From Lachnospiraceae bacterium (GTDB lineage Bacteria > Bacillota > Clostridia > Lachnospirales > Lachnospiraceae): DNA of 37,766 bases. Positions within the stretch are counted from its first letter, which is position 1. Each line of letters starts with the position of its first letter. The position numbers and the translations under genes were made by a program. Below the pieces are notes generated by a model. That model did not search any database. It was not told the origin of the DNA and saw only the letters and a program-made list of their open reading frames with translations. The stretch covers positions 1 to 37,766 of the forward strand of contig JAFYCS010000008.1 of assembly GCA_017539565.1 (NCBI GenBank), read 5' to 3'. Shown piece after piece: positions 1-22,740 of the stretch.

Positions 1-105
1 TAAAGATGCGGCAGTCACTGGGTAACCGGGAAGGCGGTCATGTGTGATGATGCTAAAGCCAGGAGACCTGCCGTAAAAAAAACTTAACGGAGATTATCCG
101 TTAAG
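1..105 (+). promoter_or_regulatory. Cobalamin (B12) riboswitch, 3' part, cut by the window edge
   Basis: The conserved 3' half of the B12 aptamer is readable: the core GGGAAGGC near 28-35, the GATGA element near 46-50 and the B12 box AGCCAGGAGACCTGCC at 57-72. The 5' stems lie before the window. A short perfect hairpin follows the box (CTTAACGG 83-90 with CCGTTAAG 98-105). The element lies upstream of a cobaltochelatase and a corrinoid-type ABC transporter, so it very probably reduces expression of the whole cobalamin operon when B12 is abundant. The promoter must lie upstream of the window. Confidence 0.93.
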
Positions 106-18107: not shown

Positions 18108-18758
18108 ATGATATACAGAAGACTCTCCTCGGGGGAGGCTGCGGTAATAGATAAAGAGCAGTCAAAACCGAAGCTTATCAAAAGATATAAATATGACGAA
18201 GAGTATTATCCGGATGTGATGTGGATACCGCCCTTTTTTATCGCACTTGGAGCGCTGAGCCTGGCGCTCAGTGTGTTTTTGAAAAGGACGGCAGGACTGG
18301 GCATTGTCTGTGCCGCTGTAATACTGGTATTTGGTTTTATTATTGCCATGACTTTGATACAGCCCCTTATGGAACGCAGAAAGTTTATACGGACATATAA
18401 AGAGAGCAGGGATAAGGGTGAACAGTTTGAAGGCAGGATCAGATCCTATATGCTGTATGGAGAAGAAAGATTCTCATCATATAAAGGAGTCTTGGGCCGT
18501 AAGGTAGTGATTAAATATGTTTTGCAGGTGGAGGTGGGCGATGCCAGGAAGATAATGGATACACCGAAGCTGCGCTTAAATCCAAACAGCGTATTAAAGA
18601 GTGACAGATGCAGGGTATATCTGTACAAAAACAAAAAGTATGTGATGGATTTTGATCTGAGAAAAAAGCGGGATGATGAGACTGCAGACATTCCACGCAA
18701 GAGCATTAAGATAGAGAAGAGGTATCTGCCTCCGGGAAAAGGATACAGCGCATTATGA
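18108..18758 (+). CDS. Small membrane protein of unknown function in the cobalamin operon
   Basis: I do not recognise a specific family. The 216 residues have a polar N-terminus, two membrane helices (about 39-58 and 62-86) separated by a short KRTAG turn, then about 125 charged residues (KFIRTYKESRDKG onward), probably cytoplasmic and beta-rich. The layout resembles DUF3592-like two-helix proteins, but this is a weak likeness. It is preceded by a 33-base gap, and its stop overlaps the cbiA start (ATGA), so it is co-translated with cbiA. Confidence 0.8.
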   Translation: MIYRRLSSGEAAVIDKEQSKPKLIKRYKYDEEYYPDVMWIPPFFIALGALSLALSVFLKRTAGLGIVCAAVILVFGFIIAMTLIQPLMERRKFIRTYKESRDKGEQFEGRIRSYMLYGEERFSSYKGVLGRKVVIKYVLQVEVGDARKIMDTPKLRLNPNSVLKSDRCRVYLYKNKKYVMDFDLRKKRDDETADIPRKSIKIEKRYLPPGKGYSAL

Positions 18759-20785
18759 TGGAGAAGAGTGATAACAGAATTCATATACCGGGGATACTAA
18801 TAGCAGCTCCCAAAAGCGGCAGCGGGAAGACCCTATTTACCTGTGCGCTTTTAAAGCTGTTAAAAGATATGGGGCGCGATCCGGTTTCATTTAAATGCGG
18901 GCCGGATTATATAGATCCCCTGTTTCATGAAAGAGTGCTGGGTGTTACGGCATCTAATCTGGATACTTTCTTTATGGATGAGTACAGGCTTAAGAAAAGC
19001 CTCATGCAGGCGAAGGGCAGATGTGCGGTAACAGAAGGAGTTATGGGGATATATGATGGTGTCAGTGTGGAAAGCACGGAAGGATCCTGCTATCAGATAG
19101 CTGAGCTCACAGGTACGCCGGTATTACTCATCGTTGATGCACACGGTGCCGCGCGCACGCTTATATCCCTGGTCAAAGGTATACTTGCGGATGATGAAAA
19201 GCGCCTTATACGCGGCCTTGTGCTGAACCGCATCTCACCGGCCTTTTATGCAAAGCTCGAACCGGTATTAAAAAAAGAACTGAGCCGGGATTACCCTCAG
19301 GTAAAGCTTCTTGGAGGTATACCGAATGACAATGCCCTTAAGATAGGCAGCCGGCATCTGGGGCTTGATATATCCACGCCTCGGGAAGAAGTCCTGGCAG
19401 GCATAGCGCGCATGGCAGAACTGATAGAGCAGAATATAGACATTAAGTGCCTGTCTGATATAATGGAAACAGCGGCTGATATTGAAGCCGAAGTGCCGGA
19501 GCGGGATATATGCACAGATCCGGATGAACATCCCGTGCTGGCAGTGGCCATGGATGAGGCCTTCTGCTTTTATTATAAAGATAACTTTGAACTGTTAAAA
19601 GAAATGGGTGTTGAGATAAGATTCTTTTCACCCATACATGATAAGGCTCTCCCGGAAGATACCGCAGGCATACTCCTTGGCGGCGGTTATCCGGAGATGT
19701 ATTTAAAAGAACTCAGTGAAAATACTGAGATGATAAAGGCGGTAGGCGATGCCATCGGTTCCGGCATTCCTTCGCTTGCGGAATGCGGCGGTTTTATGTA
19801 TCTTCATAAATACATTACAGATACCGAAGGTAAAAGATACACGATGGCCGGTGTTATAGACGGTGAATGCACCTATACCGGCAAGAGCGTGCGCTTCGGG
19901 TATTTGCAGATAGTATCCGCGCAGGATGCTGACGGAACTCTGGCCGCTGAACTGCCGGGTATGAAGGGCCACGAATTCCATTATTATGACAGTACATTAA
20001 ACGGTGATATGTGCACCGCATCGAAGCCCTCAGGCACTCCGCAGTGGAGCTGTATGACGGGAAATAAAGTGTCACTCTGGGGCTTCCCGCATTTTTATTA
20101 TCCTTCTACACCCGGTATGGTGCGGAAGTTTGCGGAATGTATGAAGGAGTACAGGATCTTACAGTGTAAAACGGAGGGAACAGAAATGGCTGATGCAGAT
20201 GAAAAGATCACGCAGGAAAAGACTGATCCGTCGGATACGGAAGAACTGAAAGAAACTAAAGCGGATGCCGGAAATAAACCGGACCTGAGCAGCACGCTGA
20301 TGGTTTATGCCGGCCCGGAATTTATAGACCGGATGCAGATGCAGGCCGTTTATGCCGGCCCTGCCCAGATGAATCCGGCTCTTCAGACACCGGCGGAGGG
20401 TGTTTATGCGGGACCCGCCATGCTGATGGCTTATGCAGGTCCTGCTATGCAGCAACCCACCATTATGCAGATGATGATGGTTTATGCCGGACCTTCAGCC
20501 GGGCCTTCCGCAAGCAATACCCCGATGATGAATCTGCCCGGGGCCATGATGGGACCGGGGAAAGGAACGGCCCGTGTGGGAAAATACTGCTTCTGCCCCG
20601 AATGCGGGGCCATGTCTAAGGGCGAATGGTTCTGCCGTGAATGCGGTACTCCCTTAAAAGGGGTTAAGCATTACAAGGACTGCCCGGGCTGTAACGCGCG
20701 TCTTGATGCGGAAGCTAAATTCTGTCAGGAATGCGGGAAAAAGCAGGATGACACACCGCAGACGAACGGGACTCAGCTGGCATAA
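18755..20785 (+). CDS. cbiA: Cobyrinate a,c-diamide synthase with a C-terminal YAGP-repeat and double zinc-ribbon tail
   Basis: CbiA amidates the a and c side chains of cobyrinate with glutamine and ATP. Residues 1 to about 470 are a full enzyme: P-loop APKSGSGKT (18-26), CGPDYIDP, GVMGIYDG, the glutaminase nucleophile Cys344 in AECGGFMYL and His446 in GFPHFYY. The frame continues for about 200 more residues, which CbiA proteins normally lack. An acidic Lys/Glu/Asp segment (about 478-510) is followed by five [V/A]YAGP motifs (Tyr518, 533, 551, 560, 577) in a Met/Gln/Pro-rich stretch, then two zinc ribbons (CPECG...CRECG and CPGCN...CQECG). A perfect GGAGG and an in-frame ATG at 20186 start exactly at the junction. 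A radical SAM gene follows without a gap. Confidence 0.93.
   Translation: MMEKSDNRIHIPGILIAAPKSGSGKTLFTCALLKLLKDMGRDPVSFKCGPDYIDPLFHERVLGVTASNLDTFFMDEYRLKKSLMQAKGRCAVTEGVMGIYDGVSVESTEGSCYQIAELTGTPVLLIVDAHGAARTLISLVKGILADDEKRLIRGLVLNRISPAFYAKLEPVLKKELSRDYPQVKLLGGIPNDNALKIGSRHLGLDISTPREEVLAGIARMAELIEQNIDIKCLSDIMETAADIEAEVPERDICTDPDEHPVLAVAMDEAFCFYYKDNFELLKEMGVEIRFFSPIHDKALPEDTAGILLGGGYPEMYLKELSENTEMIKAVGDAIGSGIPSLAECGGFMYLHKYITDTEGKRYTMAGVIDGECTYTGKSVRFGYLQIVSAQDADGTLAAELPGMKGHEFHYYDSTLNGDMCTASKPSGTPQWSCMTGNKVSLWGFPHFYYPSTPGMVRKFAECMKEYRILQCKTEGTEMADADEKITQEKTDPSDTEELKETKADAGNKPDLSSTLMVYAGPEFIDRMQMQAVYAGPAQMNPALQTPAEGVYAGPAMLMAYAGPAMQQPTIMQMMMVYAGPSAGPSASNTPMMNLPGAMMGPGKGTARVGKYCFCPECGAMSKGEWFCRECGTPLKGVKHYKDCPGCNARLDAEAKFCQECGKKQDDTPQTNGTQLA
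20173..20188 (+). promoter_or_regulatory. Internal ribosome binding site and in-frame start inside cbiA
   Basis: GGAGG at 20173-20177 lies eight bases before ATG 20186, which is codon 478 of the long frame. Initiation here would give a free protein of 199 residues (20186-20785) made of the acidic leader-like segment, the five YAGP motifs and the two zinc ribbons. The site matches the best ribosome sites of this window and sits precisely at the end of the CbiA domain. Use of the start is an inference. Confidence 0.6.
20303..20506 (+). repeat. Coding region with five YAGP motifs
   Basis: The motif [V/A]-Tyr-Ala-Gly-Pro occurs five times, with tyrosines at residues 518, 533, 551, 560 and 577 of the CbiA fusion (spacing 15, 18, 9, 17). 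Each is embedded in Met-, Gln- and Pro-rich sequence, and the last is followed by a second AGPS. The DNA of the motif units is similar but not identical (GTTTATGCCGG, GTTTATGCGGG, GCTTATGCAGG), so the peptide rather than the DNA appears conserved. Confidence 0.9.
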
Positions 20786-21802
20786 ATGATGGGAACATAT
20801 CAGTTAAGACAATGTGTATGGGAGATCACACTGGCCTGCTGCTTTTCCTGCCGTTATTGCGGATCGGGCGGCGGTAAGGCCAGGGAGAATGAGCTTAACA
20901 GGGAAGAGTGCCTTAAGCTGGCAGATGAACTGGCTGAGCTGGGCTGCCGCCGTATATCCATGATAGGCGGCGAGATCTTCATGCGTCCGGACTGGAAGGA
21001 TATCGTAGAGCGTCTTGTTGGCAACGGCATAGCCGTATGTATCATAAGCAACGGCTATATGATCGATCATTGCCTGGCACAGGAGCTTAAGAAGCTTAAC
21101 ATAGAATCGCTGGCATTATCCCTTGACGGGCCGGCCTGCATACATGACCGCTATCGTCAGGAGGGCAGCTTTAAGAGAGTGAAACGCGCTCTTGGAGTAC
21201 TGGCTAATGCGGGGGTGCCCACATCCGTCATCAGTACGCTTAATTCAGAGAACGAAAAGACTCTTGAGGAGCTCTATGGTTTCCTTACAGATTATCCTAT
21301 CTTTGCATGGCAGCTTCAGGCCTGCCTTCCCATGGGAAACGCGTCACGTTCAGGAGTTGATCACCGTTTCGACGTGAAACGGGTGATACGCTTTGTTGAG
21401 GATCACGCCGATGCACCCTTTGCCCTGGGCATTGCAGATAATATAGGTTACTATACGGAAAGTGAAGGATCACTTCGCGGCAACAGGAGCGGAGTGGCGG
21501 TATATAAAGGCTGCCAGGCCGGATTAACGGTCGTAGGCATAGACAGTGTGGGAAATGTAAAAGGCTGCGAATCCCTTTATGACGAAAGATTCTTCGAGGG
21601 GAATGTCAGGCAGCGCAGCTTAAAGAGCATCTGGGAGGATCCGGAAGCCTTTTCCTATAACAGAAAGTTCAATACGGATATGCTGACGGGTAAATGTGCT
21701 TCCTGTGACAAAAAGAGTGTCTGCCGCGGCGGCTGCCGCTCGATGGATTATTTCGCAGGCGGGAAGCTCTACGAGTCACCCTGCTGTGCCCGTAATCTGT
21801 AA
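20786..21802 (+). CDS. Radical SAM enzyme with SPASM-type C-terminal cluster domain
   Basis: The 338 residues have the [4Fe-4S]-SAM motif C-x3-C-x2-C (Cys18, Cys22, Cys25), the SAM-binding MIGGEIFMRPDW and a C-terminal Cys-rich SPASM-like region (GCQAG..., GCESL, CASCDKKSVCRGGC, CC near the end) that should hold auxiliary iron-sulfur clusters. Enzymes of this build modify ribosomal peptides (PqqE, mycofactocin type), activate sulfatases, or act on tetrapyrroles (AhbC/AhbD, NirJ). The start directly follows the stop of the CbiA-YAGP fusion, so translation is coupled. This makes the YAGP tail a candidate substrate; a corrinoid or its precursor is the alternative. I do not recognise the exact subfamily. 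Confidence 0.9.
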   Translation: MMGTYQLRQCVWEITLACCFSCRYCGSGGGKARENELNREECLKLADELAELGCRRISMIGGEIFMRPDWKDIVERLVGNGIAVCIISNGYMIDHCLAQELKKLNIESLALSLDGPACIHDRYRQEGSFKRVKRALGVLANAGVPTSVISTLNSENEKTLEELYGFLTDYPIFAWQLQACLPMGNASRSGVDHRFDVKRVIRFVEDHADAPFALGIADNIGYYTESEGSLRGNRSGVAVYKGCQAGLTVVGIDSVGNVKGCESLYDERFFEGNVRQRSLKSIWEDPEAFSYNRKFNTDMLTGKCASCDKKSVCRGGCRSMDYFAGGKLYESPCCARNL

Positions 21803-22626: not shown

Positions 22627-22740
22627 ATGAAAGTAAGATCATCAGTAAAACCGATCTGCGAAAAGTGCAAGGTCATCAAAAGAAAAGGGAGGATCATGAT
22701 CATCTGTGAGAATCCCAAACACAAACAGCGCCAGGGTTGA
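22627..22740 (+). CDS. rpmJ: 50S ribosomal protein L36
   Basis: This is the 37-residue zinc-binding protein of the large ribosomal subunit. The four zinc ligands are Cys11, Cys14, Cys27 and His32 in [15 protein letters not shown]...ICENPKHKQ, the usual zinc-binding form. The ribosome site AAAGGAGGT (22612-22620) is very strong. It is the first gene after the promoter. infA, which often precedes rpmJ, is absent here. Confidence 0.97.

Follow-up and report, generated by a model that had tools for sequence, protein, structure and literature searches.

Backbone splicing has been described for PlpX, which together with PlpY cuts tyramine out of its substrate at X-Tyr-Gly and leaves an alpha-keto amide in the backbone (PMC11002830, PMC10533398). 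A leader-free tag of ten residues can suffice for PlpXY (PMC10533398), and protease inhibition has been reported for spliceotide products (PMC11117315). Two other systems invite comparison, namely the GDL maturases (TIGR03913), which are found with DUF1843 peptides, and the mycofactocin enzyme MftC, a SPASM maturase acting on Val-Tyr (PMC8326336). Here we analysed a 37,766-nucleotide stretch of DNA from a Lachnospiraceae bacterium (contig JAFYCS010000008.1, referred to throughout as the window) in which cbiA, the gene for cobyrinate a,c-diamide synthase, runs on in frame into a tail of repeated YAGP motifs and is followed immediately by a gene for a radical SAM/SPASM enzyme. PlpX belongs to the nif11_3 family, its entry IPR026482 being equivalent to TIGR04103. 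The tail and the enzyme are a real maturase-substrate pair. Comparison of sequences makes it probable, although far from certain, that the enzyme is a PlpX relative of the splicease family and that its partner is a protein substrate with many V-Y-A-G-P sites from which tyramine is excised.

The fused gene is a single open reading frame (ORF; 18755-20785, 676 amino acids), of which residues 12-419 are covered by the CbiA profile NF002204 at 382.6 bits, against a cut-off of 254. Past CbiA the same frame encodes an acidic stretch, then the five [V/A]YAGP motifs, then a double zinc ribbon; the radical SAM/SPASM ORF opens on the base that directly follows the stop codon of the fused gene. This architecture, to which a preliminary description of the DNA had drawn attention, is borne out by NF002204, by the Pfam match to PF12773 and by the sequence itself. 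Homology to 22 other CbiA proteins of the genus stops at residue 472 at the latest, and the matches to the tails of relatives begin at residue 480 at the earliest. The tail is absent from those 22 proteins (the match in genome G693 already stops at residue 387, perhaps because it is cut), and in the relatives' loci the YAGP repeat protein is normally encoded by a separate gene. An internal ATG opens the tail's 199 residues and is preceded by GGAGGG, so that it looks like the original start of the tail gene.

We searched for relatives of the enzyme and read their surroundings (loci and genomes carry our own labels, L and G). An initial set of 13 loci at 55-88% identity was extended by nine from the family, five from the class and two from the genus; five more genus matches were loci already counted, and two further family matches at 37-39% identity are other enzymes of the clade described below. 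This gives 30 distinct enzymes, the window included, with the closest pair 88% identical. An ORF with at least two motifs adjoins the enzyme in 25 of the 30 loci, mostly upstream, downstream in L035 and, in L036 and L038, on either side; L018 is counted among the 25 on the strength of VYFGP and GYAGP. Three loci have a weaker adjacent candidate: L025 (LYAAP, VYAPP), L030 (a kinase-FHA protein with VYAAP) and L031 (IYAPP, on the opposite strand). In L010 and L012 the YAGP ORF lies elsewhere in the genome and not beside the enzyme.

The same association is seen across whole genomes. Both genes occur in eight of 30 genus genomes, a YAGP gene alone in one (G699), an enzyme alone in none and neither in 21 (Fisher p 1.5e-6); because all seven rows of the YAGP profile, A2, come from enzyme-bearing genomes, this test favours pairing and its p-value flatters. 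Strong A2 matches (E 7e-44 or better) were confined to eight genus genomes and were followed by zinc-ribbon noise, except for a fusion at L125 (2e-10) to which we return below. We read 30 loci among the A2 matches, of which, apart from L125, only G699 was new, and diverged YAGP proteins elsewhere could be missed. Enzymes of this branch (at least 49% identity) were found in 10 of 299 family, 6 of 391 class and 8 of 30 genus genomes, the window's own genome included each time, and in a phylum sample of 398 genomes only in that genome, together with two relatives at 35%; the four samples overlap in part. The distribution is thus patchy, and every member found belongs to Clostridia. The proposal in the preliminary description that enzyme and repeats form a maturase and its multi-site substrate is supported, and the check that it suggested, a search for co-occurrence outside B12 operons, gave a positive result.

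The motif itself is maintained at the level of protein, since the five YAGP stretches of the window are written in four different codings. In 30 candidate substrate ORFs we counted 97 occurrences of Y[AG]GP, compared with a mean of 0.48 and a maximum of 3 in 300 shuffles, which rules out chance repeats, with the qualification that these ORFs had been selected for such motifs or for position. A broader census of the form [VAILMGTC]Y-x-[GASCP]-P, in which Y and P are required by the search, gave 117 sites in 30 ORFs picked by hand from the loci, including the weak L025, L030 and L031 but leaving L124 and L125 uncounted. The tyrosine is preceded by V at 98 of the 117 sites and followed by A at 100 and G at 10 (A or G at 110); the next position is G at 102, and E follows the proline at 56. 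Each ORF has between 1 and 10 such matches, and a zinc-ribbon pattern occurs in 18 of the 30.

The main background in searches of this kind is ribosomal protein L13, which in Lachnospiraceae ends in VYAGPE. That pattern is present in 144 of 299 family genomes, and 30 listed places in 30 genomes (L039-L068) comprised 28 L13 genes, one membrane protein and one place without such an ORF. The window's own genome likewise has an L13 with this end (L006) alongside the maturase; seven YAGP places in that genome (L001-L007), taken from 30 outside the window, consisted of this L13 and six in frames of 50 codons or fewer. No ORF with a second motif was present at the 15 VYAGPE places in all seven enzyme-free genomes that have at least two matches. 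We therefore reject YAGP as a general motif, as the places read in enzyme-free genomes are L13 or single chance matches. VYAGPE detects only part of the family, being found in the YAGP ORF of 5 of 9 other enzyme-bearing genomes. In the literature we found no link between YAGP and radical SAM enzymes; VYAGP itself appeared only in unrelated work, and among the matches listed for YxGP, YAGP and YGGP none was relevant by title. A query combining radical SAM, multicore and Lachnospiraceae gave no match, with the nif11-class and spliceotide literature covered in part.

The enzymes have the features expected of SPASM maturases. The cysteines of the radical SAM motif (three) and of the SPASM domain (seven) are kept in 28 of 28 aligned YAGP enzymes, and the window enzyme fits the SPASM pattern, CX9-15GX4C ... 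CX2CX5CX3C ... C. Its predicted structure has a mean pLDDT (predicted local distance difference test score) of 80, with some low-scoring portions in the SPASM domain, and SkfB, PqqE and SuiB are among its best fold matches. The leading NCBIfam profiles are TIGR04103 (213.4 bits, cut-off 725) and TIGR03913 (196.3 bits, cut-off 591.75). In trees, the YAGP enzymes form a group with the maturases of the nif11_3 and GDL types and with another three enzymes from Lachnospiraceae; its support is 98/94 (42 rows), 99/98 (23 rows) and 100/99 (25 rows), and in the 25-row tree MftC, NirJ and AhbD fall outside it. The 42-row tree used all 28 YAGP enzymes and the other two used 12 of the 28. Four rows are long, NirJ, T04053, L104 and L106; the latter three were omitted from the two smaller trees, and the grouping is the same with 42 rows. 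None of the trees includes the enzymes of L117, L118, L124 and L125. A signature, W-x-[ILV]-Q...MG, follows the same boundary: all 28 aligned YAGP enzymes have it, as do all eight other clade members compared, and it is missing from each of six outside enzymes and two AhbD proteins. A second signature, [IV]GY[YF], is missing from 4 of the 28 YAGP enzymes and from L032.

Small peptides with X-Tyr-Gly or X-Tyr-Ala stand beside most clade members whose neighbours we read. The Nostoc enzyme, which at 853 bits exceeds the TIGR04103 cut-off, adjoins a Nif11 precursor ending in ALYGLPPELF. Four DUF1843 peptides beside GDL-type enzymes carry LYGG, KPYG and LYAA near the start, the exception being MYM. 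At L118 a candidate precursor contains AYG and matches nitrile hydratase weakly, under the Pfam cut-off; the locus also has a Nif11 peptide whose sole such triplet, LYA, sits near its start. Two other loci contain peptides of similar type. On an Agathobacter rectalis plasmid, an unannotated peptide of 35 residues ending in VMYGTGVRM (L108:3806-3910) is encoded a short way upstream of a radical SAM gene of the splicease clade and is a candidate spliceotide precursor. At L032, three leader peptides with AYA (358-549, 780-986 and 2665-2853) surround a splicease-clade enzyme with a C39 peptidase domain nearby, and are candidates for secreted X-Tyr-Ala spliceotides.

Compared with the known systems, the YAGP pairs most resemble the spliceotides. 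The enzyme is a SPASM radical SAM protein in the same clade as the Nostoc TIGR04103 enzyme, the target has the form X-Tyr-small residue, the Nostoc core resembles VYAGPEYF, and PlpXY can also accept short leader-free tags (PMC10533398). However, the window enzyme shares 33.6% identity with its Nostoc counterpart (query residues 10-334) and is shorter (338 rather than 420 amino acids), its TIGR04103 score is well short of the family's, alanine is the usual residue after the tyrosine, the number of sites varies among the ORFs, and a domain scan of the YAGP tail reported neither Nif11 nor NHLP. The GDL maturases share the clade and have peptides with a tyrosine close to the start, the next residue being G, G, M or A (n = 4), but differ in the placement of the zinc ribbon. 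In that group it is C-terminal on the enzyme (two annotated GDL enzymes and an Aureibacter enzyme beside DUF1843 peptides), and it was present in 4 of 4 enzymes, three of GDL type and one from Tropicibacter; in the YAGP system it is on the substrate ORFs and on 0 of 30 enzymes, whole frames having been checked. Thus, the zinc ribbon may serve docking from either partner. The preliminary description had proposed the acidic part or the zinc ribbons as the recognition part of the substrate, for which both are candidates.

Taken together with the published PlpX chemistry, the peptides beside the relatives make it the simplest interpretation of the YAGP motifs that a new branch splices at them, alanine having replaced glycine. 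The enzyme would recognise several near-identical V-Y-A-G-P sites in one protein, without a known leader, and at each would remove a tyramine equivalent from the tyrosine and rejoin the backbone. The predicted product at each site is alpha-keto-beta-valine followed by Ala-Gly-Pro, with a loss of 135.08 Da. The modified protein, bearing several electrophilic ketoamides, would probably stay in the cell and, if published spliceotides are a guide, may act as a protease inhibitor. In the window, where the substrate gene is fused to cbiA, it is a B12 enzyme that carries the target tail, and the internal start may still yield free repeat protein alongside the fusion. If this is correct, backbone splicing would no longer be confined to small precursor peptides but would also take place, at several sites each, in cellular proteins of Clostridia from gut and rumen. 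It would also be a one-enzyme, apparently leader-free system with a five-residue repeat as its tag, and might be of use for introducing reactive ketoamides into proteins.

Several observations weigh against this assignment. The enzyme scores under the cut-offs of both TIGR04103 and TIGR03913, and the trees were built from rows that do not include PlpX. We know of no established chemistry for the nearest clade mates (L032, L033 and the Agathobacter enzyme), so the chemistry could differ within the clade. A small X-Tyr-Gly/Ala peptide was not found among the neighbours read at L033, and none was clear at L117 or L111. The tyrosine here mostly precedes alanine, whereas the published splice sites that we have seen are XYG. 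No ORF resembling PlpY, the RRE partner of PlpX, was detected in 38 loci by tblastn (best E 0.57) with a 71-amino-acid Nostoc ORF that was taken as PlpY-like from its position and has no Pfam match. Three of the adjacent candidates, L025, L030 and L031, carry weak motifs only. The YAGP gene of G699 (L133:1453-1944), upstream of rpmJ-rpsM, is in a genome without the enzyme at E<=1e-55, and has either lost its partner or is served by another enzyme. Finally, splicing tags are sensitive to context, as PlpXY spliced only two FtsZ tag variants (PMC10533398).

The absence of a detected PlpY-like partner and the preference for alanine would also fit a different modification of the YAGP tyrosines, in which the tyramine is kept and the residue is cross-linked (Val-Tyr or Tyr-Pro), hydroxylated or epimerised. 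MftC provides a precedent, as it joins Val and Tyr (PMC8326336) in a peptide, MftA, that ends in GVY, and valine is also the usual residue before the YAGP tyrosine. However, MftC falls outside the clade (100/99) and has no W-x-[ILV]-Q...MG signature, its Val-Tyr forms the very end of the peptide, and most clade members read are accompanied by X-Tyr-Gly/Ala peptides. We regard other chemistry as rather unlikely, although it is an alternative to be taken seriously. It is also conceivable that the repeats serve as a tail for binding or for structure and that the adjacent enzyme has a different substrate. The VYAGPE end of L13, the two genomes in which the genes are apart (L010 and L012) and the enzyme-free G699 are compatible with this idea, which is nevertheless improbable given the adjacency in 25 of 30 loci on either side of the enzyme, the two flanking YAGP ORFs of L036 and L038, and the presence of a YAGP protein in every enzyme-bearing genome of the genus sample.

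The preliminary description had suggested a modified tail tied to the B12 pathway, possibly as a corrinoid or cobalt carrier, or alternatively an enzyme that acts on a tetrapyrrole as AhbC/AhbD and NirJ do. An enzyme that makes or changes a tetrapyrrole for B12 work would fit the position at the close of a B12 gene run behind a cobalamin riboswitch. Neither suggestion held up. A tblastn search of the other 29 loci (flanks of about 1-6 kb), using as queries 17 proteins encoded in the B12 region of the window, returned tail matches and one short ABC-ATPase match only. With window-type B12 genes not found at those loci and the tail lacking from the 22 other CbiA proteins, a B12 or cobalt-carrier role is not supported, and the B12 neighbourhood of the unit looks like a local accident. 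Profiles for AhbD (132 bits) and NirJ-type enzymes (103-112 bits) do match the enzyme, at scores far under cut-off. Grouping of NirJ and AhbD with the YAGP enzymes was rejected by the approximately unbiased (AU) test (p-AU 0.0012, 25 rows), as was that of NirJ alone (p-AU 0.0049, 23 rows), in alignments with one NirJ, which carries a long-branch warning, and two AhbD rows, one of them under the family cut-off; both enzyme types also lack the W-x-[ILV]-Q...MG signature. The trees and the AU test reject the tetrapyrrole alternative as far as AhbD and NirJ are concerned, AhbC having been compared by profile score only, and we consider such a role for the enzyme very improbable. The sole neighbour with a tetrapyrrole or corrinoid flavour noticed among the relatives is a URO-D family gene (PF01208, L018:4602-5675) directly upstream of the YAGP-maturase pair, and it is a hint, the single pointer towards such a tie.

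The arrangement of genes in relatives suggests how the fusion may have arisen. In L097, cbiA directly precedes the zf-like gene that in the window comes after the maturase, as if the YAGP-enzyme pair sat between the two. In G699, a genus relative, the YAGP gene lies about 3.5 kb after cbiA on the same contig, just ahead of rpmJ-rpsM; in the L010 genome, also of the genus, it is likewise upstream of the rpsM cluster, and in the window this cluster of ribosomal genes begins at 22627. From these arrangements, the YAGP gene was probably a local neighbour of cbiA that lost its border with it; an assembly error at the junction is possible as another source of the fusion.

A second tail fusion, on an enzyme unrelated to CbiA, is found at L125:350-1492, where an NADPH-dependent FMN reductase (PF03358) continues into a tail that bears a zinc ribbon as well as two VYAGP motifs, and the fused gene adjoins a maturase. 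The sole ATG codons between the reductase and tail parts stand directly before the first motif. At L030:2483-3745, directly ahead of a YAGP-clade enzyme, a Ser/Thr kinase-FHA protein has VYAAP between its two domains and is a possible single-site target in a signalling protein. Returning to the splicing model, we tentatively suggest that YAGP modules might be portable tails that, once fused to unrelated enzymes (CbiA, the FMN reductase and possibly the kinase-FHA protein), would give working enzymes several backbone ketoamides through a stand-alone, leader-free X-Tyr-Ala splicease. We put this forward as a possibility with less conviction than tyramine excision itself.

Table 1. Positions of the cbiA-YAGP fusion, its maturase and flanking features in the window
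Feature	Position	Strand	Basis
cbiA part of fused ORF (cobyrinate a,c-diamide synthase, residues 1-477)	18755..20185	+	NF002204 profile and homology limits
Shine-Dalgarno-like GGAGGG ahead of internal ATG	20173..20178	+	Sequence
YAGP-repeat substrate protein (proposed), here CbiA C-terminal tail; possible own start ATG 20186	20186..20785	+	Separate ORF in relatives; aligned with six relatives
Motif 1 VYAGP, proposed modification site	20303..20317	+	Sequence
Motif 2 VYAGP, proposed modification site	20348..20362	+	Sequence
Motif 3 VYAGP, proposed modification site	20402..20416	+	Sequence
Motif 4 AYAGP, proposed modification site	20429..20443	+	Sequence
Motif 5 VYAGP, proposed modification site	20480..20494	+	Sequence
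Double zinc ribbon of tail	20594..20737	+	Pfam DZR PF12773, residues 614-661
Radical SAM/SPASM maturase, nif11_3/GDL (splicease-type) clade, 338 residues	20786..21802	+	Profiles, trees, predicted fold
CX3CX2C radical SAM cluster motif (Cys18, 22, 25)	20837..20860	+	28/28 aligned enzymes
Full 7-cysteine SPASM domain (Cys243, 261, 304, 307, 313, 317, 334)	21512..21787	+	28/28 aligned enzymes
Cobalamin riboswitch, cut by window edge, ahead of B12 gene run ending with fused gene	1..89	+	Rfam RF00174, 42.7 bits
rpmJ, first gene of rpmJ-rpsM ribosomal cluster	22627..22740	+	Gene names read from sequence

Judged by position, the cbiA-tail and maturase unit probably shares an operon with the cobalamin riboswitch. 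Two further short elements recur in the YAGP proteins. A second motif, YPxN[YHF], is present in seven YAGP ORFs (L015, L017 and L025-L029). A short basic stretch containing LF, which could be a docking or membrane signal, is located at one end of several of the proteins, N-terminal in L021, L023, L026, L027, L028 and L036 and C-terminal in L015 and L017.

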